64,000 nucleotides of DNA, taken from Hymenobacter monticola. GTDB lineage: Bacteria > Bacteroidota > Bacteroidia > Cytophagales > Hymenobacteraceae. The DNA lies in contig NZ_CP094534.1 of the NCBI RefSeq assembly GCF_022811645.1, positions 2,232,001 through 2,296,000 on the forward strand, given 5' to 3'. The translations under genes and the position numbers were made by a program. Positions 10,718 through 53,825 of this stretch are shown here, piece after piece (position 1 is the first letter of the stretch; each line of letters starts with the position of its first letter). A model generated the notes under the pieces. That model saw nothing but the letters and a program-made list of their open reading frames with translations, was not told where the DNA came from and did no database searches.

Positions 10718-13700
10718 ATGAATCGATATTTGATATTCACGGCGTGGTTGGGCTTGGTGCTGGGCAGCTATTCGGCGGCCCAGGCCCAGACGAAAGCGGC
10801 GCCCGGTACCGCGCCGGCCGCCGCGGCCCCGCGCTACAAAGTGGGTACCCTGGCCACCGACCCGGCGCAGTACATCCTCGACGCGCAAAGCATGATGGCC
10901 GCCACCCGCAACGCGGGCGCCATGGCCGCGGCTGCCCGCTTAAAGGAGCTTTGGGGCACCAACCGCCTCACTTCCTCGCAGCAAGCGCGCATCGTGGCCT
11001 TGTCGCAGGTGATGCTGACCCAGCATTTCCGGCCGCGGCCGCATTTCGAGAACCTGTTCGGCGCCATTGTGGGCGGGGCCACCACGGCCAAGCTCAGCGA
11101 CGCGCAAATGGACCAGTACCTCGACGTGCTGGGCCAGACCCTGCAAAAGGAAGCGCCGCAGGAAACCGAGAAGTTCATCACGTCCACCAACCGCTACCTC
11201 AACGGCGGCTACCTCTACCGCACGGGCTTCAACTCGCTGCGGGCGGTGGGCGGCACCGTGTCGTTTGCGTACTCGCCCATCGCAGCGCCGGCTTCCAACC
11301 TCGACTTTGGCAGCGCCACACCGGCGGCACCCAAAGAGGAGCCGCTGCCCGCCGCACCCAAGCCGGCCGCTAAGAAGCCCGCTGCCGCCAAGCCGGTGGC
11401 CAAACCCGCCGCCAAGCCTGCACCCAAAAAGAAAGCCAGCAGCAGCGGCTGGGACACGGCCGATTTGTGGTCATCGCCCTCGGGCGGCGGCTGGGGCGAT
11501 GCCGACGACGGCTGGGGCGCGCCCGTGAAGAAAAAAGCACCGGCCAAAAAGCCCGTGGCCAAAGCCGCGCCCGCCACCAAAGCCAGCCCGGCCGCCACCA
11601 AAACGCCTTCGGCCTCGGAAGTGGCCGCCAAGGCCGCCGATTTTGAGACGCCCACCGCCAGCTTCACGCCCTCGGCCACGCCGTATGAAGAGTACCTGGC
11701 GCCGCCGGTTCGCGGGGCCGTGCTGGTCATCAAGGACGCTGATTTGTTTATGGCTTCGGCCGGCGACTCGGTGTTCATTAAGAAGGTGAGTGGCACGGCG
11801 GTGCCCAATTCCAGCCGCTTTATCGGCACGGGGGGGCAATTTGTCTGGTCCATCAACAGCAATCTGGTAACGGCCGAGCTGGCGGGCTTTGACTTCGACC
11901 TGAGCAAGCCCGAGTTCACGGCGCAGCCTGTGACGCTGACCTACCCGGCCGTGCTGGAGGCCCCCGTGAAGGGTGCCCTCAGCTACAAGGCCGTGCGTCG
12001 CAAGCCCGGCCAGACCGACAACGGCTACCCGCGCTTCATCTCGCTCACCAACGACGCCCGCATTAAGAGCTTGGGCGATAACATCAAGTACCGCGGCGGC
12101 CTGTCGATGGCGGGCAGCAAGGTGCTGAGCGCGGCCCTCGACGGCTCGCTTTCGAACCTCACGGTGAGCCTCGACGGCAAGCCCAAGTTCAAGGCCGCCT
12201 CCCGGGCCTACGTGCTCGGCGACTCGCTGATTACGGCCAGCCGCGCCGCCGTCACCATCTACGAAGGCGCCAAGGACTCGGTGACGCACCCCGGCGCGCA
12301 GCTCAAGTACTCGAAGGCCAAGCAGCAGCTCAAGCTCTCGCGCGAAGAGGGCTTATATAAGAACACGCCCTACAGCGACTCCTACCACCAGATGGAAATC
12401 CGGACGCAGGCCCTGACCTGGAACCTGCACCAGCCCACGGTGAATTTTGAGGTGCTTTCGTCGAAAAACCAGCAGTCGGCTGATTTCGAGAGCAAGGAAT
12501 TCTTCACCAACAACCGCTACCAGCAGCTTAAGAGCATCAACCGGCTGCACCCGCTGCAGATGCTGGTGGGCTACAGCCAGGCCCACGGTAATGCGAAAAC
12601 CATCAACGTGAGCGACCTGGCCCGCGACCTGCAAACCTCGGAAGACAACATGCGCAGCGCCGCCTCGGGCCTGACGCGCGACGGCTACGTGGCCTGGAAC
12701 GCCCAAACCGGCGAGGTCACCATTCTGCCCAAGGGCTTCCACTACGTGGCCTCGGCCCGCGACAAGAAGGACTACGACCACATTGCCATCAAGTCGTTGT
12801 CGGGCTCGGGACGCAATGCCACGCTCAACCTGAACACCAACGAGCTGCTGGTGCGCGGCGTGGAGCGCTTCAACTTCTCCGACGACTCGGCCACGGTATT
12901 CGTGAAACCGGACAGTGCCATCATTCGCATCCAGAAAAACCGCAACATTGATTTCGGCGGCACGGTGGTGGCCTCAGCCATGCGCTTCAAGGGGCGCGAG
13001 TTCAAGTTCGACTACGACGGCTTCTACGTCGACATGGCCAAGATTGACTCCATTGTGATTCGCAGCGAGGCCAAGGACGCCAAGGGCAAGCCCACCGGCA
13101 AACGCGCCGATTTTGCTCTTACCAACAAGGGCAAGACGTCGAGCGGCCGCCTCTACCTGAACGACCCCAAGAACAAGTCGGGCCGCAAGAAAAAGCCGCA
13201 GTATCCCTCGTTTGATTCCAAAACCGGCTCCAACGTGTTTTTCGGCAAGCAGGACGTACTGGGCGGCGCCTACGACTCCACGATGGTGTTCGACATTCCG
13301 CCCTTCAAGCTCGATTCGCTCAACGGCATCGGCAAAACGGCGTCGGGCTTCGATGGCACCTTCCGCAGCGGCGGCATTCTGCCCGATATCAAGACCAAGC
13401 TCACGGTGCAGGAAGACGGCTCGCTGGGCTTCACCTACGACGTGCCCAAGGACGGCTTCCCGCTCTACAAGGGCCGGGGCCGGGTGTTCAACAAGGTGAA
13501 GATGGACGGCAAGGGCCTGCAGGCCGATGGTACCGTAACGTACCAGTCGGGCACGTTTACCTCGAACAGCTTCGTGTTCTACCGCGACTCGGTGGTGGCC
13601 GTGGGCAAAACCGGCTCCATCGCCGCCAAGAAAACCGCCACGGCCGACATTCCAAAGATGACCCTGCCCACCGGCTACCTCATGAACTGGAATGTGAAAC

Positions 13701-16294
13701 AGGACTCGATGTACCTGGCCACGCCGGCCAGCGGCGAGGCCATCAAGCTCTATTCGGGACCCGTGGACCCCAAAACCAAAACGGCCTCAGGCTACAGCTT
13801 CAAAGGCACGGCCTTGCTGACGCCGCGCAACGCGGGCGGCAGCGGCCGGCTGGACGGGCCGCAGTCCTTCATCAAGTCGCCGGAGTTCACCTTCAAAACC
13901 GACAGCTACTCGGGGCGCAATGCTGCGCTCAGCGTGAAATCGGCCGAGACGAACAAGCCGGCCCTCACGGCCAACGACGTAGCCTTTGAGTACAACCTGC
14001 AGAAGGGCTACGCCGACTTCAAGCGCGAAGAGGGCAGCAAGGCCAGCATCGACCTGCCGTACTCCAAGTTCAAGACCACGCTGAGCGACGGCCACTGGGA
14101 CTTCAAGAAAAAGCAGGTAAAGCTGCGCGTGGCGGCCAATTCCGACTCCACCAGGTCGTACTTCTACTCCACCAACCCCGACCAGCAGGGCTTGAAATTT
14201 AAGGCAGCCACCGCCACCTACGACCTGGCCAAATACCGCATGCAGGTAGGCGGCGTGCCCTACATCGCCTCGGCCGATGCCTGGGTGTATCCGGACTCGG
14301 GCAAGGTGAGCATCGGGGCCAACGGCAAGCTGCAGCGCTTCCGGAATGCCACGGTGGTGCTCGACTCGCTGGCCAAGTTCCACCGCCTGAGCAAGGGCGC
14401 CATTGAAGTGGTGTCGAAAACGACCTTCACCGGCACCGCCGAGTACACCTTCAAAACGGCGCGCGACTCGGTGGCTTTGCGCTTCTCTAACTTCCAGGCC
14501 GACTCCGGCGCCGTGGCCGGCACCCGCAAGGGCAAGGGCCTGCTGAGCCGCAAGCCCAAGCCCGCCGCCGACGGCGAAACACCCGCCGGCCCGGCCACCG
14601 TGGCCACGGCCGTGGTGAACGCCAACAGCAAGTTCCAGCTCACGCCGCGCATCGGCTACCGCGGCAACGTGCAGCTGAACTCGCAGCGCCGCGGCTTCGC
14701 CTTCGATGGTCAGGTGCAGCTGCAGTTTGGCAAAAACCGCGCGTCGGCCGAGTGGATTGCGGTGAAGGACTCCATCGACCCGAAAAACTTTAGTCTGAGC
14801 CTGCAGGACATCAAAACCGAGGACGGCACGCCGCTCATGACGGGCCTGTTCGTGTCGGACCAGAGCAACAAGGTGTACCCGCTCTACGCCGCCACCGTGC
14901 CCAACAACACCGACATTCCGCTCTTCAAGGTGGATGGCAAGCTGCGCTACGACGACCGCAAGGGCATCTACAGCATCTCGCGCCGCGACCTGGAAGACGT
15001 GAACGCCTACGAGGGCGCGGCCATGACCTACACCGACGAGACGAACTCGCTCAGCTTCCGCGGGCCGATGTCGTTCATTGGCGGCAGCAAGGACTACAAG
15101 ATGGTGGCCAGCGGCGTGGGCACCGCCAACCCCGACAGCGCCCGCTACTCGGTAGACGCCCTGCTGGGCCTCGACATCAACATGCCGGCCAAAGCCATTG
15201 AGGCCATGGGCGCCGACCTAGCCCGCGTCACCAAGGGTTCGGCCGAGGCCCAGGACGGCTCCACTAACGAGCTCTACAAGCTGGCCCAGTTCATTGGCGA
15301 CAAAGGCGCCGAGGGCTACGCCGGCCACCCCGGCGGGGCCGAGTCCATCATGAAGCTCTCGCCCAAGCTGGTGCACACCATCTTGCTGAGCAAGGTGAAC
15401 CTGCGCTGGAGCGAGAAAAAGCGCGCCTGGTACTCGGTGGGCCCCATTGGGCTGGCCGGCGTGGGCAAAACGTCGCTCAACGCGCTGGTGAATGGCCACG
15501 TGGAAATCCGCCGCGAAAACTCGACCGACGTGGTAGAGCTGTACCTGGAGCCCGAGCCCCAGACCTGGTATTACCTAAAATACGCCAACAACCTGTTGCT
15601 AGCCAAAGCCTCGAACGAAAGCTTCGACGGCGAGATTGGCGGCAAGCAGAAAGGCGACTACCAGACGGCCACCGCCTACGGCACCTTCCTGGGTGAATTC
15701 TCCGACGTGGACAACTTCCGTTCGCACTTCCAGAAGGACTACCTGGGCCAGAGCGGCAAGCTGGCTGCCCGTCCGGCCGCCCCGGTGCCTACCGGCAACT
15801 TCGACAACTTCGAGGACAAGAAGAAAAAGAAGAAGGGCAAGAACGACGACCCCTTCGGCAGTGAAGACGCCAGCGCCAACCCCGGCAGCGCCCCCGCCGA
15901 TGCCGCCCCGGCCGCCAGCAAGAAGGCGAAGAAGAAAAAAGACAACGACCCCTTTGGCGATGGCGCCGTGGACGAGCCCGCCCCCGCGCCGGTGACCAAG
16001 GAAAAAACCAAAGACAAGGAAAAAGCCGCCGAGCCCGCTGCCGCTGACTCCCCGGCTCCCGAGCCTAAAAAGGAGAAAGCCAAGGAAAAAGCTGCTGACC
16101 CTGCTCCTGCCGCCGATGCTCCCGCTACCGAGCCCGACGCCGCGCAGTCTAAGAAAGACGCCGAGCGCGAAGCCAAGGAAGCCGAAAAGCGGAAAAAGGA
16201 GGAAGAAAAAGCCGCCAAAGCCGCCGAAAAGGCTAAGCAGGAGGAGGAAAAGCGCAAGAAGAAAAACGAAAACGACCCCTTCGGGGACAGCTAG
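10718..16294 (+). CDS. giant secreted beta-rich protein with lysine-rich tail and three DPFG motifs, function unknown
   Basis: The product is 1858 residues from ATG 10718, chosen because it begins a clear signal peptide (MNRYLIFTAWLGLVLGSYSA, cleavage after AQA). After a helical N-terminal region (about 30-195) comes an Ala/Lys/Pro linker (about 205-325) that holds a tryptophan/glycine patch (SSSGWDTADLWSSPSGGGWG). A long body (about 330-1690) is rich in short beta strands with repeated motifs such as FKTDSYSGR and DGKPKFKAASRAYV. The tail from about 1700 is highly charged. Three times a run of lysines is followed by DPFG (codons at about 15850, 15948 and 16277), the last ending the protein as DPFGDS. 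I do not recognise a named family. The body looks like surface or periplasmic beta-helix or jelly-roll material. No T9SS C-terminal domain is seen. Confidence 0.85.
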   Translation: MNRYLIFTAWLGLVLGSYSAAQAQTKAAPGTAPAAAAPRYKVGTLATDPAQYILDAQSMMAATRNAGAMAAAARLKELWGTNRLTSSQQARIVALSQVMLTQHFRPRPHFENLFGAIVGGATTAKLSDAQMDQYLDVLGQTLQKEAPQETEKFITSTNRYLNGGYLYRTGFNSLRAVGGTVSFAYSPIAAPASNLDFGSATPAAPKEEPLPAAPKPAAKKPAAAKPVAKPAAKPAPKKKASSSGWDTADLWSSPSGGGWGDADDGWGAPVKKKAPAKKPVAKAAPATKASPAATKTPSASEVAAKAADFETPTASFTPSATPYEEYLAPPVRGAVLVIKDADLFMASAGDSVFIKKVSGTAVPNSSRFIGTGGQFVWSINSNLVTAELAGFDFDLSKPEFTAQPVTLTYPAVLEAPVKGALSYKAVRRKPGQTDNGYPRFISLTNDARIKSLGDNIKYRGGLSMAGSKVLSAALDGSLSNLTVSLDGKPKFKAASRAYVLGDSLITASRAAVTIYEGAKDSVTHPGAQLKYSKAKQQLKLSREEGLYKNTPYSDSYHQMEIRTQALTWNLHQPTVNFEVLSSKNQQSADFESKEFFTNNRYQQLKSINRLHPLQMLVGYSQAHGNAKTINVSDLARDLQTSEDNMRSAASGLTRDGYVAWNAQTGEVTILPKGFHYVASARDKKDYDHIAIKSLSGSGRNATLNLNTNELLVRGVERFNFSDDSATVFVKPDSAIIRIQKNRNIDFGGTVVASAMRFKGREFKFDYDGFYVDMAKIDSIVIRSEAKDAKGKPTGKRADFALTNKGKTSSGRLYLNDPKNKSGRKKKPQYPSFDSKTGSNVFFGKQDVLGGAYDSTMVFDIPPFKLDSLNGIGKTASGFDGTFRSGGILPDIKTKLTVQEDGSLGFTYDVPKDGFPLYKGRGRVFNKVKMDGKGLQADGTVTYQSGTFTSNSFVFYRDSVVAVGKTGSIAAKKTATADIPKMTLPTGYLMNWNVKQDSMYLATPASGEAIKLYSGPVDPKTKTASGYSFKGTALLTPRNAGGSGRLDGPQSFIKSPEFTFKTDSYSGRNAALSVKSAETNKPALTANDVAFEYNLQKGYADFKREEGSKASIDLPYSKFKTTLSDGHWDFKKKQVKLRVAANSDSTRSYFYSTNPDQQGLKFKAATATYDLAKYRMQVGGVPYIASADAWVYPDSGKVSIGANGKLQRFRNATVVLDSLAKFHRLSKGAIEVVSKTTFTGTAEYTFKTARDSVALRFSNFQADSGAVAGTRKGKGLLSRKPKPAADGETPAGPATVATAVVNANSKFQLTPRIGYRGNVQLNSQRRGFAFDGQVQLQFGKNRASAEWIAVKDSIDPKNFSLSLQDIKTEDGTPLMTGLFVSDQSNKVYPLYAATVPNNTDIPLFKVDGKLRYDDRKGIYSISRRDLEDVNAYEGAAMTYTDETNSLSFRGPMSFIGGSKDYKMVASGVGTANPDSARYSVDALLGLDINMPAKAIEAMGADLARVTKGSAEAQDGSTNELYKLAQFIGDKGAEGYAGHPGGAESIMKLSPKLVHTILLSKVNLRWSEKKRAWYSVGPIGLAGVGKTSLNALVNGHVEIRRENSTDVVELYLEPEPQTWYYLKYANNLLLAKASNESFDGEIGGKQKGDYQTATAYGTFLGEFSDVDNFRSHFQKDYLGQSGKLAARPAAPVPTGNFDNFEDKKKKKKGKNDDPFGSEDASANPGSAPADAAPAASKKAKKKKDNDPFGDGAVDEPAPAPVTKEKTKDKEKAAEPAAADSPAPEPKKEKAKEKAADPAPAADAPATEPDAAQSKKDAEREAKEAEKRKKEEEKAAKAAEKAKQEEEKRKKKNENDPFGDS

Positions 16295-16496: not shown

Positions 16497-17141
16497 ATGC
16501 ACTATCTCTACATCGCCCTCGCCTTCCTCGCCGCCTATCTGCTCGGCTCCGTCCCCACGGCCCTGTGGGTAGGCCGCCGCTTCTTCAACCTCGCCGACAT
16601 CCGGGAGCACGGCTCCGGCAACGCGGGCGCCACCAACACCTTTCGGGTGCTGGGCCCCAAGGCGGGCTCCTTCGTTTTGTTCGTGGATGCGCTGAAGGGC
16701 TTCGTGGCGGCGTTTTTCCTGCCGCAGTGGCTGGTGGCGCAGGGTGCCATCGCACCCGAGCACGAGCTGTATTACCGCCTGGCCTGTGGCGCCCTGGCCG
16801 TGGTGGGGCACATCTACCCCGTGTTTGCGCAGTTTCGGGGCGGCAAGGGCGTGGCCACTATCCTGGGCATGATGCTGGGCGTGGCCCCGGCCACGGTGGG
16901 CGTGTGCATCCTCGTCTTCATCGTGATGCTGCTCTTGTTCCGCTACGTGTCGCTGGCCTCCATGACGGCGGGCGTGTGCTTCGCGCTGCTGCAGCTGCTG
17001 CCGCAGTTCCGGCCGCAGCAGCCGTTTCTAATTTATGTGGGTTTCGTGCTGGCGGCGCTGCTCATCTACACCCACCGGGCCAACATTGGTCGGCTGCGCG
17101 CCGGGACGGAGAGCCGCGTACCGCTGCCGTGGGCGAAATAG
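16497..17141 (+). CDS. plsY: acyl-phosphate:glycerol-3-phosphate acyltransferase
   Basis: The 214-residue inner-membrane protein makes lysophosphatidate from acyl-phosphate and glycerol-3-phosphate, the first acylation in phospholipid synthesis. The three PlsY motifs are present: GSVPTALWVGRRF, HGSGNAGATNTFR (about residues 40-52) and GHIYPVFAQFRGGKGVAT (about 102-119). Five or so hydrophobic segments agree with the family. Its start at 16497 follows the composite inverted repeat. The next downstream gene is a tiny membrane ORF that is probably separate. Confidence 0.95.
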   Translation: MHYLYIALAFLAAYLLGSVPTALWVGRRFFNLADIREHGSGNAGATNTFRVLGPKAGSFVLFVDALKGFVAAFFLPQWLVAQGAIAPEHELYYRLACGALAVVGHIYPVFAQFRGGKGVATILGMMLGVAPATVGVCILVFIVMLLLFRYVSLASMTAGVCFALLQLLPQFRPQQPFLIYVGFVLAALLIYTHRANIGRLRAGTESRVPLPWAK

Positions 17142-17373: not shown

Positions 17374-17964
17374 ATGCTACGTCCCCTCGTTTTGGCCGTG
17401 TGCGGCCTGCTACTGATGCGCCCGGCCGCGGCCCAAACCACTCCACCGCCCACCGCCGGCCGCACAATTACGGCGCCCGTGGGCTACAACTGGCAGCTGC
17501 TGCCCGAAGTAAACGCGGCTGTGCTCAAGCCCTTCACCTGGAACTACAAGGCCGAGGCCAGCCGCGACGCGCAGGCCTATTTCGTGACGCGCGAAAGGAT
17601 TATGCCCGGCAAGCAGTTTAAAACCGGGCTTTCGCTGAACGTGGTGCGGCGCATCAGCGCCCGGGCCAAGCAGCCGGCTGATGCCTACGCCCGGGCTTTC
17701 GCAGCCCGCAGCGGGCGCGGGGCCGGGCAGCAGGTGCTGGCCCAGGAAACCAAGGCGCAGGGGCCACTGCGCCTCTACGGCGTGCGCTACCGCGTGGCCA
17801 ACAGCGGGGCCGACGCCAAAATCATTCAGCAGTGGGCCATTGCCAATACCGCCACCGATACCTTCTACCTGCTGCTTTTCGAAAGCCCCGAGAAAGACTG
17901 GCCGCTGGCCTGCAAATTCGGCCAGGAAATGATAAAGCAGATTCGACTCGATGCGAAAGTGTAG
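17374..17964 (+). CDS. secreted protein of unknown function, first of a tandem pair
   Basis: The 196-residue product begins with a signal peptide (MLRPLVLAVCGLLLMRPAAA, cleavage before QTT). The mature part matches the next gene: GYNWQLLPEVNAAVLKPFTWNYKAE here against GFNWQPLPESKAAALLPAGWYYKAE there, and DTFYLLLFESPEKDWPLACKFG against DTLYLLTFESPEKEWAEAWKLG near the end. The pair clearly arose by duplication. No catalytic motif is visible; the pattern of an alpha/beta sandwich ending in FESPEKxW resembles PsbP-like or stress-type lipoproteins, but that is only an impression. The gene ends 20 bases before its paralogue. Confidence 0.8.
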   Translation: MLRPLVLAVCGLLLMRPAAAQTTPPPTAGRTITAPVGYNWQLLPEVNAAVLKPFTWNYKAEASRDAQAYFVTRERIMPGKQFKTGLSLNVVRRISARAKQPADAYARAFAARSGRGAGQQVLAQETKAQGPLRLYGVRYRVANSGADAKIIQQWAIANTATDTFYLLLFESPEKDWPLACKFGQEMIKQIRLDAKV

Positions 17965-17984
17965 CGGGTGCTAGCTTCGCCGGT

Positions 17985-18560
17985 ATGTTCCGTTTCATCT
18001 TCGCCGTGGTGGCCGTGCTGCTGGCGCTGCCCGCCGCCGCGCAACGCTACAACACCAAGCTGACGGCCCCACTCGCAGGCTTCAATTGGCAGCCGCTGCC
18101 CGAAAGCAAGGCCGCCGCGCTGCTGCCCGCCGGCTGGTACTACAAAGCCGAAGGCGAGAAAAGCGCGCCCACCTACTACCTCACCCAAGAGGAGCTGGGG
18201 GAAACCGGCGAGTACCAAACCGGCCTCTCGCTGCAGGTGGTGCGCAAGGCCAAAGCCAAAACCCGCCACGCCGCCCCCGAATACGCCGAGCTGCTGATGA
18301 TGCGCACCGGTTTCGGCCGCGGCCAGCAGCAGCTGGAGAAAACGGCCGCCACCGAGGGCCCCTGGCACAAGCGCACCGTACGCTACCGCGACGCCCCGCC
18401 CGATGCCGAGCCCCGCGTGGTATACCAAATGGCCCTGGCCAACGCCAAAACCGACACGCTCTACCTGCTCACCTTCGAAAGCCCCGAAAAAGAATGGGCC
18501 GAGGCTTGGAAGCTGGGCGAAGTGATGGTGCGCGAGCTGGTGCTGGACGCGCGGCAGTGA
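17985..18560 (+). CDS. secreted protein of unknown function, second of a tandem pair
   Basis: The 191-residue product starts at ATG 17985, where a signal peptide opens (MFRFIFAVVAVLLALPAAA). An open frame extends further upstream into the preceding gene, but that extension is antisense-like shadow and not needed. It is a paralogue of the preceding gene throughout its length (see the shared GFNWQPLPE, GLSLQVVRK and TFESPEKEW segments). Close spacing suggests co-transcription. Its stop is directly followed by a 98-bp inverted repeat that separates it from the peptidase gene. Confidence 0.8.
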   Translation: MFRFIFAVVAVLLALPAAAQRYNTKLTAPLAGFNWQPLPESKAAALLPAGWYYKAEGEKSAPTYYLTQEELGETGEYQTGLSLQVVRKAKAKTRHAAPEYAELLMMRTGFGRGQQQLEKTAATEGPWHKRTVRYRDAPPDAEPRVVYQMALANAKTDTLYLLTFESPEKEWAEAWKLGEVMVRELVLDARQ

Positions 18561-20102: not shown

Positions 20103-20134
20103 AAAGCCCCGTCCCCGCAAGAGGGCGGGGCTTT
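20103..20134 (+). terminator. terminator between M20 peptidase and the first outer-membrane barrel gene
   Basis: Twelve-base arms (aaagccccgtcc paired with gggcggggcttt, one wobble) and an eight-base loop lie between convergent genes, so it may act in both directions. Confidence 0.8.
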
Positions 20135-20801
20135 ACTTTGAACGTTCCGGGGCGGACCGGTCCCGGAAAATGAGGCCGGCGTAGAGCTGGAACACCTGGT
20201 TGTGCACATCGGGCTCGCCGGAAACGTTCGAGTAGCTCGCGTAAACGCCGGTGCGCAACACCGAAGTCAGGCCCGCGCAGTAGCGCACGCCCAGCATCAA
20301 CCCGTTTTCGGCCTGAAAGCCGCCCCCCAAAGCGTAGCCCAGCTCGAACGGCTTGACCTTGCTGCGGTTTTCGTACAGGCTTTGCCCGTTCGATTCGAGG
20401 CGGGCGCTGAGGAGGTAGGAAAAAGTGGGGCCGGTTTCGACGAATAAGCCCAGCGGGATGCGCAGCTTGGCCAGCACCGGTACTTCCAGATAGGCCAGAC
20501 GCTGGTCACCGCTCACATACTGGTTGTTGGGCAGTGGAAAGCCTTGGCTACGGGCGCCTTTTTGCGAGTACAGCAGCTCGCCCTGCACCGAAAACACCGG
20601 CCCGAGGGGCAATGCCAGCACCCCGCCGCCGCAGTAGCCGCCTAGGTTGCCATTGCCCACAAACGTGTCGTTGCCCCGGTACTGGGCCAGGCTGCCCCCC
20701 AGCTTGAGGCCCACGCGGGGGCGTTGGGCGGCGGCGGGCGGGCTGCCCGCCAGCAGGGTGAGAACAGCGGCCAAAGCCAGCGCGTTGGGCATAAGAAACA
20801 T
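20133..20801 (-). CDS. outer-membrane beta-barrel protein (PorT family), paralogue 1
   Basis: The product is about 222 residues from ATG 20801; a second ATG at 20792 gives the cleaner signal peptide (MPNALALAAVLTLLAGSPPA), cleaved before QRP. An ATG at 20834 is unlikely because the upstream gene's terminator overlaps it. The mature chain has the PorT/OmpW-like pattern VGLKLGGSLAQYRG, GELLYSQKGARSQGF, YLEVPVLAKLRIPLGLFVETGP and a final aromatic strand VFQLYAGLIFRDRS. Such eight-stranded barrels lie in the outer membrane. It is the last of four related minus-strand genes. Confidence 0.8.
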   Translation of the reverse strand: MFLMPNALALAAVLTLLAGSPPAAAQRPRVGLKLGGSLAQYRGNDTFVGNGNLGGYCGGGVLALPLGPVFSVQGELLYSQKGARSQGFPLPNNQYVSGDQRLAYLEVPVLAKLRIPLGLFVETGPTFSYLLSARLESNGQSLYENRSKVKPFELGYALGGGFQAENGLMLGVRYCAGLTSVLRTGVYASYSNVSGEPDVHNQVFQLYAGLIFRDRSAPERSK

Positions 20802-20832
20802 TTGAAGGGAAAGGATGCCGCAAATCAAACGC

Positions 20833-20867
20833 AAAAGCCCGGCTTCCGCAACGGCCGCCGGGCTCTT
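20833..20867 (-). terminator. terminator of barrel gene 2
   Basis: Eleven-base complementary arms (aaaagcccggc and a near complement) flank a 13-base loop. It sits just downstream of the gene ending at 20891 on the minus strand. Confidence 0.72.
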
Positions 20868-20890
20868 AAATCAGGACTGAGGCCGGCCGG

Positions 20891-21478
20891 CTACCGCCCG
20901 AACGAATACGTCACGTATAGCTGGAAAGCGCTGTTGCGGATGCTGTTCTGCAGCTTCACATTGCCCACCGTCACGGCTTTCTCGATGTTGGTAAAGCCGC
21001 CGTTGTAGCGCAGGCCGATGCCCGGGCCCTTTTTGCGCTGAAAGCCCAGCCCGGCCAGGTAGCCAAAGTCCAGCGAGTTGTAGATGTTTTTGGTGTCGAT
21101 GGATGCAGTACCCACTTCTTGCTGCGCCCCCACCAGAAAGCCAATCTGCGGGCCGGCTTCAAAGAAAAGCCCGTCGGCGTTCACGTGAAACGCCAGCGGT
21201 ACATCAACGTAGTGCAGGCGTTTTTTGACATCGGTGAGGTTGGAGACGGAACCCTTCTGCGAGTAGATGATTTCGGGCTGAAACGCGAACATGTCCGTCA
21301 GGCCAATATTGGCGAACGCGCCCGCGTGAAATCCCCATATATACTCATCGTTGACGGTCTGCTTGCCAACAAAGCTCGAATACGTTGCGCCCGCCTTCAG
21401 GCCAAGCGACACATCTTGTGCCTGCGCGGCACCCGTGAGCCCGGCCAGCAGCGCGAGGGTGAAAAGGGTCTTTTTCAT
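20891..21478 (-). CDS. outer-membrane beta-barrel protein (PorT family), paralogue 2
   Basis: The 195-residue product starts at ATG 21478 with a signal peptide (MKKTLFTLALLAGLTGAAQA, cleavage before QDV). Family features run in order: LGLKAGATYSSFVG, FQPEIIYSQKGSVSN, LHYVDVPLAFHVNADGLFFE, and a terminal strand LQNSIRNSAFQLYVTYSFGR that ends in an aromatic residue plus arginine, typical for BAM-inserted barrels. A TAnnTTTG box lies on the minus strand at 21503-21510. It shares most with the genes on either side. Confidence 0.85.
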   Translation of the reverse strand: MKKTLFTLALLAGLTGAAQAQDVSLGLKAGATYSSFVGKQTVNDEYIWGFHAGAFANIGLTDMFAFQPEIIYSQKGSVSNLTDVKKRLHYVDVPLAFHVNADGLFFEAGPQIGFLVGAQQEVGTASIDTKNIYNSLDFGYLAGLGFQRKKGPGIGLRYNGGFTNIEKAVTVGNVKLQNSIRNSAFQLYVTYSFGR

Positions 21479-21502
21479 AAGCGAAGTAGATAGGTGATGC
21501 CG

Positions 21503-21510
21503 CAAAGCTA
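21503..21510 (-). promoter_or_regulatory. Bacteroidota -7 box (TAGCTTTG) of barrel gene 2
   Basis: On the minus strand the bases read TAGCTTTG, matching the Bacteroidota sigma-A consensus TAnnTTTG. The box is 25 bases ahead of the ATG at 21478, which fits a short leader. Confidence 0.6.
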
Positions 21511-21569
21511 CGCCGGCCGCCCTGCGCGTCGGTCCGCCCAGGCACCCTTTCTGCGGCCGGCAAGCACAC

Positions 21570-21604
21570 AAAAGCCCGGTTTCCAGTGCGAAAACCGGGC
21601 TTTT
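21570..21604 (-). terminator. terminator of barrel gene 3
   Basis: Thirteen-base perfect arms (aaaagcccggttt with its complement) around a nine-base loop lie 28 bases after the minus-strand gene ending at 21632. Confidence 0.82.
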
Positions 21605-21631
21605 GCCGCAAGGGCGTTGCCGTTGTCGGCC

Positions 21632-22213
21632 TTAGCCGCCAAACGAGTAAGCCAGTACCACCCACACGGCGCTCGACTTGAACTTGCCCGTGCCCAGCAC
21701 CGTGGAGGCGTTGCTTTTGAAAAGGTTGGAGGCGCCGCCGTCGTAGCGCACGCCCAGCGACGGGCCTGCGCCAAAGCGGTAGCCCACGCCGGCCATGTAG
21801 TTGAGCACGACGCTGTTTAGCTCGCTCTTGGTGTCGGCCGCATCCTCGTTCACGGCCTTGATGGGAAAGCCCACTGCCGGGCCCGCCTCAAAAAACAGCC
21901 CGTTGAGGCGGTAGCGCACCAGCAGCGGCACGTCGATGGACGTGATGTCACGGTTCAGGCTTTCGTCGTTCGACGTGTCGAAATAGCGCTTGCTGTAGAG
22001 CACCTCGGGGTGAAAGCCCACCTTGTCCGACACCTTGAAGTCGGCCGTGAGGCCGGCCTGGTAGGCCGAGTGGGCCACCGACGTGTACTGGTTGTTGCTC
22101 AGAATCCGGTCGCGGCCGTAGCCCACCGTTATGCCAAATGTGGTAGCGCTCTGGGCCTGGGCCGCGCCGTAGGCCCCAAGCAGCAGGGCCAGGGTGGTGA
22201 TGATTTTTTTCAT
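21632..22213 (-). CDS. outer-membrane beta-barrel protein (PorT family), paralogue 3
   Basis: The 193-residue product starts at ATG 22213 with the signal peptide MKKIITTLALLLGAYGAAQA. The mature protein follows the family order (GITVGYGRDRILSNN, FHPEVLYSKRYFDTSN, SIDVPLLVRYRLNGLFFEAG, GYRFGAGPSLGVRYDGG) and closes with AVWVVLAYSFGG. The longer open frame up to 22438 is not supported because it begins inside the terminator of paralogue 4. Function is unknown beyond an outer-membrane barrel; the family includes receptors, adhesins and PorT of the T9SS. Confidence 0.85.
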   Translation of the reverse strand: MKKIITTLALLLGAYGAAQAQSATTFGITVGYGRDRILSNNQYTSVAHSAYQAGLTADFKVSDKVGFHPEVLYSKRYFDTSNDESLNRDITSIDVPLLVRYRLNGLFFEAGPAVGFPIKAVNEDAADTKSELNSVVLNYMAGVGYRFGAGPSLGVRYDGGASNLFKSNASTVLGTGKFKSSAVWVVLAYSFGG

Positions 22214-22395
22214 AACAAAGAACAAAGATGAAGATTGGATGAAGCTGATTTTGTGAGAGTTAGCTTTGCAATCCTGTATACTGTGCGTTTTGTAAATGGT
22301 TATCATCTTCCCCTTATTGGTGCAAAAAAATCCGGCTTGCTGGCCTAACCGGCAGTGGCCCACTGCCCTGCACCGGAAGTGGGTAGGCATAAAAA

Positions 22396-22428
22396 AAGGC
22401 TGGCGACCCGAGGTCGCCAGCCTTTTCA
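22396..22428 (-). terminator. terminator of barrel gene 4
   Basis: Fifteen-base perfect arms (aaaaggctggcgacc and complement) with a three-base loop and flanking A/T runs make a classical intrinsic terminator 21 bases after the stop at 22450. Confidence 0.88.
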
Positions 22429-22449
22429 GCCGGTTCAAAGCAATGAAGC

Positions 22450-23223
22450 TTATTTGCCCAGCGGCAGCAGGTAGCCTACCTGCAGCGTGAAGGCGTTGTT
22501 GAAAGCCTTGGGCTCGTTTTTCGTGTCTTTCGAATCAATCAGCGAGTTGAAGCCTTGGGCGAAGCGCAGGCCCAGGCTCAGGCCGCCCTCGGTTTGGTAG
22601 CCCACGCCGGCCACGCCGGCGATGTCGAACTGCGCCAGGTCCGACTTATCGGAACCGCTCTGGAAAGCGCCGGTGTAGTTCTGGAAGGTGCCATTGTCTT
22701 CCACTTTGTCTTTGGTGCCGTTGGTGTACTTGGTGGTGGTTTGCTGCTTGTTCTTGGAACCGAACAGGAAGCTCACCTGCGGGCCGAGCTCAAAAAACAG
22801 GCCGCCGGCATTGATGCGGGCCAGCAAAGGCACGTCGAGGTAGTGTAGCACGCGCTGCTGCTCAAACTCGATTTTGGAAATGTTGGAGCCGGCTGCAAAG
22901 CCAGTGGATTGCTGCGAGTTGATTTCGTATCCCTTGCGGTTGTACAGCAGCTCGGGAGCGAAGGCAAAGAAGCCGTCGCTGCTCAGCGGGATGATGGCAC
23001 CAACACCCGCGTTGTAGCCCAGCTTATAAGAGCCCAGCTCGGAGTTAAAATTGGGGCCCGCGATTTGGGATACGCTGCTGCCGTTGAGGCTGGAATACGT
23101 GGCACCGACTTTCACACCGAGGCGAAAGCCACCGCTGTCCTGCGCGTTGGCAACCGAGATGCTGAATGCCGACAGGGCCAGTACGGCCGCTTTTTTTGCG
23201 ATGCTGGAGGAGGTAATGGTCAT
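22450..23223 (-). CDS. outer-membrane beta-barrel protein (PorT family), paralogue 4
   Basis: The 257-residue product starts at ATG 23223 and has a signal peptide ending ISVANA before QDSGG. It is the longest of the four because of inserts between strands (for example FGSKNKQQTTTKYTNGTKD and FQNYTGAFQSGSDKSDLA). The conserved core is VKVGATYSSLNG, FAPELLYNRKGYEI, HYLDVPLLARINAGGLFFE, GLSLGLRFAQGFNSL and a final AFTLQVGYLLPLGK. The long polar inserts are probably extracellular loops. No ligand can be named. Confidence 0.85.
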   Translation of the reverse strand: MTITSSSIAKKAAVLALSAFSISVANAQDSGGFRLGVKVGATYSSLNGSSVSQIAGPNFNSELGSYKLGYNAGVGAIIPLSSDGFFAFAPELLYNRKGYEINSQQSTGFAAGSNISKIEFEQQRVLHYLDVPLLARINAGGLFFELGPQVSFLFGSKNKQQTTTKYTNGTKDKVEDNGTFQNYTGAFQSGSDKSDLAQFDIAGVAGVGYQTEGGLSLGLRFAQGFNSLIDSKDTKNEPKAFNNAFTLQVGYLLPLGK

Positions 23224-23794
23224 AAAATGGGGGTGGTTAAAAAAAGGTGAAATGGGCAAAAAAGAATAGATGATACTCTCAATGAATTTCCCTTTCAGGC
23301 CTGTCCTTATAGCGCATCGAAGGGCCAATAGGTTGCTGAAAAGCAATTAAATTTTGAGGTTAAGTAACTGTTAATGCAATAGTTATGCTTGTTAATGGGC
23401 GCGAAGGGATAAGGCCTGCTGCTGGGCCGATGACGCGGTGCGGCAAGCACCTGAAACAACCGTGGTGATTTTATGCTGGCAGACCCATAGTTGCGGTGGG
23501 AGGCGGCCCTATCGGGCCCGGCTATTTTCGTTGCTATTTGCCAACTGCTCGTATCGGTGCCGCCCGGCGTTCCGGACGCTTGCAGTGAAGTTCCAGAGGC
23601 ACTATACTGATGGGAATGGAAAAGGGTTGTGCCAGTGGTAGGGGCACCGCCCGGCTGGCCCGGCTGGTTGCACTGCAAGGCAAACGAAGTCAGGCCGCTA
23701 CTGCGTGGGCACAGGGCCAAAAAAAGACGACGGGCAGAAGTGGGCCAAACGCTGGCGGCGCGTCGTAATTTTGAAGCCAGTGAGCTAGGAGCCT
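23224..23794. other. intergenic region of about 570 bases between divergent genes
   Basis: This stretch separates the barrel array (minus) from the PagL-like gene (plus). It begins AT-rich (to about 23400) and then returns to normal composition. Short frames on both strands lack recognisable features. A plus-strand TAATTTTG box at 23766-23773 is a promoter candidate for the next gene. No RNA gene or repeat is apparent. Confidence 0.5.
23766..23773 (+). promoter_or_regulatory. Bacteroidota -7 box (TAATTTTG) upstream of the PagL-like gene
   Basis: The octamer matches TAnnTTTG and lies 21 bases before ATG 23795. No good -33 TTG is seen at the usual distance, so confidence is moderate. Confidence 0.5.
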
Positions 23795-24922
23795 ATGAAG
23801 TTTCGTTTGTTTAAGACTGTTTTGGTCGGGTTAATGTTGTGGAGCGGTGCCACTGTGGCGCAAGCGCAGAGCTCAGACACCACCGTGGCCGCCGCCCCGC
23901 CCCGGGCTCCGCTGGTGGTGGGGGCCTACGCGCAGGGCAGCATCATCATGGCGCACACCTACGCCATCCGGCACCTGGTGGCCTCGCACCCCACGGGCTT
24001 CGAAATCAACCTGCAGCGCCAGACCACCGGCGCAGCACCCTGGCACGGCTGGTACAAGTACCCCAAAATTGGCTTGGCGCTCACCTACTACGATTTTCAC
24101 AATCCCATCCTGGGCCACGCGTTTTCGGCCAGCCCTTACATCAGCAAGACGTTTTCGCGCGGGCCCAAGCACGATTTCAGCTTCCGACTGGGCGCGGGGC
24201 TGGCCTACCTCACCAACCCCTACAGCCAGGAAACCAACCACAAAAACACCATCGCCAGCTCGGCCCTGAACGCCACGCTGCAGTTCCGGTTCGAGTACGA
24301 CTACGCCCTCACGCCGCACCTGGGCCTGCTGGTGGGCGCCGGCCTGAACCACTACTCCAACGGCGCCACCTCCAAGCCCAACTTCGGCGTGAACCTGCCC
24401 TCGCTGGTGCTGGGCCTGAACTACCACGAGCAGCGCCACCCCGCCCAAACCAACCCCAACGCGCCGGCGCCCGAAGACGTGGGCAAGCTGTTCTACAACG
24501 TGAGCACCAGCCTGGGCTACAAGCAGCGCTCCGAAGGCGACAAGCAGAAATACTTGGTGAACTCCGTGACGCTGGCCGTAGGCCGGCGCATGAACCGCAA
24601 ATCCAACCTGCTGCTCGGGGTCGAAGGCTTCAACGACCGCAGCCTGAAAGCCACCCTGGATGATACCACTCGCGCCGGCCTTAAGCAGCCCGACGTGAAA
24701 AAGGCGGGCGTATTCATCGGCCACGAACTGCTATTTGGGCGGCTGGCGTTCGACTCGCACCTGGGCTTCTACGTGTACGCGCCCTACAAATCGAGCACGC
24801 CCTACTACGAGCGGCTGGGCCTGAAATACCACTTCACCAACCTGCTGTTCGGCGCCGTCGACCTGAAAATCCACCGCGGCGCGGCCGATGTGATTGAGTT
24901 TAAAGTAGGGGCGAAGCTGTAG
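23795..24922 (+). CDS. PagL-like lipid A 3-O-deacylase (acyloxyacyl hydrolase family)
   Basis: The 375-residue protein has a signal peptide (VLVGLMLWSGATVAQA before QSS) and an outer-membrane barrel pattern. GAGLNHYSNGATSKPNFGVN contains His186-x-Ser188-Asn189, matching the PagL catalytic His-Ser pair in the HxSN context. PagL-type enzymes remove the 3-position acyl chain of lipid A in the outer membrane, altering surface properties. At 375 residues it is about twice the length of Pseudomonas PagL; the extra C-terminal half (after about 230) has further barrel-like strands and ends in DVIEFKVGAKL. The Bacteroidota acyloxyacyl hydrolase family is often this long. Confidence 0.78.
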   Translation: MKFRLFKTVLVGLMLWSGATVAQAQSSDTTVAAAPPRAPLVVGAYAQGSIIMAHTYAIRHLVASHPTGFEINLQRQTTGAAPWHGWYKYPKIGLALTYYDFHNPILGHAFSASPYISKTFSRGPKHDFSFRLGAGLAYLTNPYSQETNHKNTIASSALNATLQFRFEYDYALTPHLGLLVGAGLNHYSNGATSKPNFGVNLPSLVLGLNYHEQRHPAQTNPNAPAPEDVGKLFYNVSTSLGYKQRSEGDKQKYLVNSVTLAVGRRMNRKSNLLLGVEGFNDRSLKATLDDTTRAGLKQPDVKKAGVFIGHELLFGRLAFDSHLGFYVYAPYKSSTPYYERLGLKYHFTNLLFGAVDLKIHRGAADVIEFKVGAKL

Positions 24923-48812: not shown

Positions 48813-50328
<1,516 letters not shown>

Positions 50329-50428
50329 GGAGCAGTTCGACTCGTGGGTTCGTGTAAAGTGAGACGCTTATAATGAACAACTTACCGTTGTCTTTTCCAT
50401 CATTCAAATAATACTTGAATCCGAATAC

Positions 50429-50502
50429 GGGCTTGTAGCTCAGGTGGTTAGAGCGCTACACTGATAATGTAGAGGTCCGTGGTTCGAGTCCACGCAGGCC
50501 CA
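50429..50502 (+). tRNA. tRNA-Ile (GAT) in the 16S-23S spacer
   Basis: Acceptor stem gggcttg/caggccc, D-arm, anticodon stem ctaca/tgtag with loop ctgataa (anticodon GAT), T-arm gtgg-ttcgagt-ccac. Discriminator base A at 50502; no CCA encoded. No tRNA-Ala follows in the spacer. Confidence 0.96.
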
Positions 50503-50693
50503 CTTGGTTCGCCAAGTGGTCTGAAAGGTTCAGGATTCTAAATGTATATAGACTATTGGTAATTGACCGATAGTTTACGATGTCACTAAACACCAGAGTG
50601 ACGAACGTTCTTTGACGTAAGGGGTAACAAAAACGAAGCGTAGCGCACTTGCCGCTCTTAATTGAGCGGAATCAAACAAGTGTTGATTACGAA
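50503..50693 (+). promoter_or_regulatory. 16S-23S spacer part 2 with boxA-like element
   Basis: A second GTTCTTTGA lies at 50607-50615, as expected before 23S. The remaining spacer has processing-stem-like sequences but no second tRNA. Confidence 0.6.
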
Positions 50694-53610
<2,917 letters not shown>

Positions 53611-53701
53611 ACTATGTCGTCAAGTGCGCGCCCAGCGCTTCGTTTTTGTCCCCTTGCGTCGAGTTATTGAGTTGTTGCACGAACACGCAACAGCCCGCCA
53701 G

Positions 53702-53813
53702 CAATGGTGGCTTTAGCCCGGGTGTTCACCTCTTCCCATTCCGAACAGAGCCGTTAAGCCCCGGTGCGCCCATGGTACTGCCTTCACCGGTGGGAGAGTC
53801 GGTCGCCGCCAAT
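53702..53813 (+). rRNA. 5S ribosomal RNA
   Basis: The segment contains the terminal helix tggtggc/gccgcca and the conserved core cccattccgaacag. It lies 91 bases after 23S and is about 110 bases long. Borders are approximate. Confidence 0.93.
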
Positions 53814-53825
53814 CTTATCAACAGG

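Follow-up and report, generated by a model that had tools for sequence, protein, structure and literature searches.

Conserved C-terminal tips and arrays of short peptides are exemplified by the tip of SSB and by the DPF/DPW motifs of endocytic adaptors. The jelly-rolls of LptA, LptC and the N-terminal part of LptD are small subunits. The TamB/AsmA-like proteins of Bacteroidota, in turn, are beta-rich and about 1,500 residues long, and the C-terminal end of TamB from F. johnsoniae is disordered, according to PMC12045153. Here we analyze a stretch of 64,000 nucleotides from Hymenobacter monticola (contig NZ_CP094534.1, positions 2,232,001 to 2,296,000; "the window"), which contains a gene for a giant protein that looks exported. 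The giant protein is like the TamB/AsmA-like proteins in size and beta content, but it lacks a TamB domain and lies in another genomic place, and the TamB genes of the same genome end without DPFG. It differs from the Lpt jelly-rolls in being one chain, with no sequence kinship found, and from the Lpt bridge in having an inserted winged helix, a helical N-domain and peptide arms. Like the SSB tip and the endocytic arrays, it has a disordered, charged arm that ends in or repeats a short acidic-aromatic peptide, although it is a bacterial envelope protein and the likeness is one of analogy only. No paper on the giant protein was found in the open-licence literature searched.

An earlier note on this DNA had described an exported protein of 1858 residues without a recognised family, with three lysine-run/DPFG motifs in its tail and a W/G-rich patch in its N-terminal linker. 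All of these elements are present. The open reading frame (ORF) is genuine; there is an in-frame TTG 26 codons upstream of its ATG, and a start at the equivalent position is possible in several orthologues (e.g. L001, L003, L004 and L013). Judged by eye, the N-terminus (MNRYLIFTAW..AQAQ) is a plausible Sec signal. The layout of the protein is as follows:

10718..16294, + strand: giant exported protein, 1,858 aa plus stop (ATG at 10718, stop at 16292-16294)
10718..10789, + strand: putative Sec-type signal peptide, aa 1-24 (assigned by eye from the sequence)
10862..11206, + strand: N-terminal domain of six helices, aa 49-163, of unassigned fold (block pLDDT about 89-94 in the AlphaFold model)
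11285..11683, + strand: disordered linker, aa 190-322 (block pLDDT 30-42), present in the order and absent from 24 class-level rows
11447..11518, + strand: Trp/acidic motifs GWDTADLW and GWGDADDGWG (the W/G patch), aa 244-267, in the N-linker
12506..12766, + strand: inserted winged-helix (MarR-like) domain, aa 597-683 (predicted structure)
12770..13420, + strand: first Lpt-type jelly-roll stretch, aa about 685-901 (predicted structure)
13607..14236, + strand: second Lpt-type jelly-roll stretch, aa about 964-1173 (predicted structure)
15188..15739, + strand: C-terminal beta domain (about aa 1555-1674) preceded by a helical hairpin (aa 1491-1536), which together close the class-wide body; fold not identified
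15785..16291, + strand: C-terminal tail, aa 1690-1858, mostly disordered (block pLDDT 27-40), with a single predicted Lys/Glu/Ala helix at aa 1810-1848 (pLDDT 60-80)
15818..15859, + strand: Lys-run/DPFG copy 1, aa 1701-1714
15929..15958, + strand: Lys-run/DPFG copy 2, aa 1738-1747
16256..16285, + strand: Lys-run/DPFG copy 3, aa 1847-1856, the conserved terminal copy, ending two residues before the C-terminus

The DPFG motifs are not due to chance, and what is conserved is the terminal copy, not the copy number of three. The first homologue search returned 276 homologues, of which we examined the best 120 (those with a name come nearly all from Hymenobacter). Except for P0043 and P0076, all of these (118 of 120) end in DPFG followed by one to three residues, the ending being DPFGDS in 89. 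Within the last 260 residues, at least one further DPFG is present in 88 of the 120 proteins (one in 77, two in 10, three in 1, none in 32), and none of the 120 has a DPFG in its body. The 12 residues preceding DPFG contain a mean of 6.1 lysines or arginines, versus 2.3 for windows across the whole tail. A second set, read from DNA, consisted of the window and 55 loci from the genus or from Solirubrum, 52 of which differ from one another in their C-terminal 300 residues. Because the terminal motif is DPFG in 48 of these 56 sequences and DPFA or DPFT in the remaining 8, the core motif in this set is DPF. The lack of DPFG conservation in orthologues, which the earlier note had named as a refutation, was thus not observed.

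Two other explanations for a conserved C-terminal motif were considered and judged unlikely. A general sorting tag is hard to reconcile with the single occurrence, in the whole genome, of the one DNA pattern searched for DPFG-x-(Ser or similar)-stop (variants of the pattern were not searched). Recognition of the terminal carboxylate, of the PDZ or degron type, is disfavoured because internal copies exist and the position of the aromatic residue varies: in some lineages it ends the chain (DDGF), and in Hymenobacter three more residues follow it (DPFGDS). No model of a type IX secretion sorting domain was present among the Pfam or NCBIfam matches at E values up to 10.

Comparison across lineages places the tail in a wider context. 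Outside the order, 24 class-level rows have a size of 1,449-1,589 aa (one partial row, L103, has 1,183), with a linker of 0-2 residues and 3-29 residues after the body; all together they contribute just 3 linker and 226 tail residues. The proteins of the order, on the other hand, have a linker of 38-159 residues and a tail that is mostly longer. Left out of the rows were L033 and L046 (wrong ORF picked), L044 (no ORF above the cut-off), L051 (two ORFs) and L052 (the window itself). In a FastTree tree of the body, the linker-bearing rows lie on the same side of the midpoint root; L082, which belongs to the same class but not to the order, is on that side too. In Hymenobacter the arms carry DPFG in the tail and GWGDADDGWG in the linker; other lineages have DPFSDWD, FSDWDNP, DPWAAF or FQDWEQE in the linker, and in the tail EEGFGD arrays, a DDGF end or, in L069, 14 DPF copies, nine of them as DPFTGEP. 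These sequences show DPFG to be a local variant of a wider motif, acidic-(G/P)-aromatic; since this motif also occupies the N-linker, the W/G patch and the tail appear to be two instances of the same phenomenon.

Comparison with composition shuffles, using a regular expression composed after the sequences had been inspected, showed enrichment of this broader motif in the linker (42 vs 5.6 and 19 vs 5.2 in two row groups) and in the tail (37 vs 4.2 and 33 vs 4.5), but not in the body (54 vs 47.6 and 61 vs 50.2); the group of "other rows" includes L082. Of the 21 rows outside the genus, only 13 have the motif in the linker and only 11 in the tail; 19 have it in at least one arm. The C-ends of 112 additional proteins from a third search are divided between acidic-G/P-F (33), LF plus up to two residues (40) and other endings (39), which indicates that the C-end is lineage-specific. 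A motif-type C-end is found in 19 of 49 giant ORFs versus 5 of 625 neighbouring ORFs; since the giant ORFs are related, the 19 are not independent observations, and the figures give a contrast and not a probability. It is likely, in our view, that the tail acts as a partner-binding peptide array, a conclusion more secure than that of lipid transport. The binding array suggested by the earlier note thus stands in so far as the repeated motif of the tail is conserved and has the properties of a peptide array, but DPFG is only the local version of it.

No family could be assigned to the body by sequence. Searches with the whole protein against Pfam, NCBIfam and PDB sequences, as well as a profile search of PDB sequences, gave chance-level matches only, and no Pfam family recurred among 24 diverse relatives. 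With hhalign, the values against the OstA protein of the same genome and E. coli LptA/LptC were at most 8.3%, and nothing significant was obtained when a 1,020-aa piece of one of its own TamB proteins was included (its own LptC was outside the set compared). The absence of a recognised family, as noted earlier, is therefore confirmed at the level of sequence; the predicted fold, on the other hand, is recognisable. Structure searches with predicted models show Lpt-type jelly-rolls in the body, combined with a winged helix of MarR type. Thus, the predicted model has the beta jelly-roll fold of the Lpt/OstA superfamily, and its inserted domain the winged-helix fold, but no sequence match to the Pfam families or members of this superfamily was found, and we have therefore not filed the giant protein as a member. 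A MarR-family winged helix is here placed inside an exported protein; given this inferred export, DNA binding is implausible, and the domain may have an interaction role.

The giant protein is widespread in the class Bacteroidia and patchily absent from it, as follows from samples that include the genome of the window and its genus neighbours, and in which misses may reflect limits of sensitivity. It is present in 104 of 118 sampled genomes of the order; the 14 without a match belong to four families, which contribute six (of 0.7-1.2 Mb), four, three and one of them. Of the 60 genomes in a class-wide sample, 54 had it. When 61 genomes of the phylum were searched with a profile, four matched (the genome of the window, the one other genome of the same order and 2 of 13 others of the same class), and none of the 46 genomes of other classes did. 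The 11 same-class misses are spread over five families, and four of them had already been missed in the class-wide sample. Named sources include Hymenobacter, Cytophaga aurantiaca, Cytophagaceae, Cyclobacteriaceae and Vicingaceae. There is a single matching place in the window's genome, and tblastn against plasmids gave no match. The undescribed component proposed in the earlier note does lack a curated family, but it is a class protein with patchy losses and not an oddity of one genome. In L135 (genome G142, same class) the giant gene is present in two tandem copies, and in a marine relative (L051:1254-5860, + strand) it consists of two overlapping ORFs of 835 and 705 aa, either a natural split or an assembly error.

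How might such a protein function? The reading that we tentatively prefer, based on predicted models, is that of a periplasmic, Lpt-like body that handles lipid or serves as a scaffold, and that is provided with two tethering arms. The long beta body with its Lpt-type jelly-roll (beta-taco) stretches would be located in the periplasm of Bacteroidia, where it would most likely bind or shield the acyl chains of a lipid in transit, or scaffold that route; candidate cargoes are an LPS precursor, a phospholipid or a lipidated protein. The genome also encodes OstA, LptC and two TamB (PF04357) loci elsewhere, for which reason we regard the giant protein as additional to this set, and it would work alongside these proteins. 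(The 622-aa OstA protein of the same genome, L158, has a Lys/Ala/Pro-rich low-complexity C-tail without DPFG.) In the order of the window, the N-linker and the Lys/Glu-rich C-tail would form a pair of long flexible arms, and the acidic-(Pro/Gly)-(Phe/Trp) peptides repeated in both would tether the protein, probably through multivalent binding to a single pocket on a partner in the envelope. The anatomy, the distribution, the conservation, the motif enrichment and the likeness of the predicted fold to known ones come from computation; the periplasmic location, the lipid cargo, binding by the peptides and a partner common to both arms are inferred. A stronger version, in which the protein is a Bacteroidia-specific trans-envelope bridge for lipid or LPS, that is, an undescribed single-chain counterpart of Lpt with a winged-helix docking module that in the order is held at the membrane by two-arm peptide arrays recognising one receptor, is in our opinion unlikely.

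An alternative that is possible, though we find it somewhat doubtful, is that the protein is a periplasmic interaction scaffold or hub without lipid cargo. Its winged helix, helical N-domain and arms would all recruit proteins, such as those of the peptidoglycan or BAM/TamL machinery, and its beta body would act as a spacer. In favour of this, winged helices, helical domains and arrays of motifs often serve as modules for interaction, and no sequence kinship with lipid carriers was found. The structure matches are divided on this point: MORN1 is the best match of the first model, and open MORN/CPAP-like sheets score nearly as high as Lpt, whereas the 16 best matches of the second model are all Lpt jelly-rolls with a lower rmsd than the open sheets. 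An LptD-type outer-membrane translocon, with a jelly-roll followed by a beta barrel, would agree with LptD being the best match overall and with the porin-like matches for about aa 1297-1625; even so, we give this reading the smallest chance of all.

Several UniRef entries among the homologues are labelled Translocation/assembly module TamB, and the shared size class and long beta body might indicate a divergent TamB/AsmA protein. We consider this very improbable, since the giant protein has no match to PF04357 (the TamB domain) at E values up to 10, the genome has its two PF04357 loci elsewhere, and the profile comparison with a piece of one of their products gave no match. Furthermore, PF04357 gave matches in six of the 14 control genomes, E. 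coli among them, whereas the giant protein was found in none of 46 genomes outside its class; the absence of TamB from the structure matches listed carries no evidential weight, as these cover part of the library. With respect to the tail, its Lys/Glu/Ala-rich composition, the free variation in copy number and spacing, and the differences in C-ends between lineages would be consistent with low-complexity drift, i.e. charged disorder expanded by slippage and without specific function. The near-constant terminal copy, the DPF in all 56 DNA-read sequences and the motif excess, which is seen in the two arms and absent from the body, make drift improbable.

Because the giant protein has no curated Pfam or NCBIfam name despite its wide occurrence (54/60 genomes in the class-wide sample, though 2/13 of the same class in the second draw), a giant envelope component of Bacteroidota has probably been overlooked or mislabelled as TamB. 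If it does carry lipid, it would constitute an extra route beside Lpt and TamB, and the motif arrays offer a direct handle on the putative partner by means of a short peptide bait.

The genomic neighbourhood was compared at 47 loci (40 regions chosen from matches and seven others, including the window), with ORFs called mechanically and neighbours identified by Pfam, plus a comparison with PlsY. The gene prmA is present in 28 of them, immediately upstream in 26, and tpiA in 17. The plsY gene is found in 18 loci, in 17 of them immediately downstream, and prmA and plsY together flank the giant gene in 10. The window has no prmA upstream of the giant gene, and its own plsY was missed by the ORF calls:

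16497..17141, + strand: plsY, downstream neighbour (PF02660, E 2.9e-54; PlsY comparison)

Just downstream of plsY lie two adjacent paralogues (17374-17964 and 17982-18560, + strand) that share 45% identity and look exported, and for which no Pfam family was found. They are followed by four consecutive genes for small outer-membrane beta-barrels (20133-23346, - strand; PF13568/PF13505), perhaps a tandem expansion; consecutive small beta-barrel genes are also present in other Hymenobacter loci. A 375-aa protein with a PagL-type lipid A 3-O-deacylase domain is encoded at 23795-24922 (+ strand), about 7.5 kb from the giant gene, and a complete rRNA operon (16S, tRNA-Ile, 23S, 5S) occupies positions 48813-53814 (+ strand).
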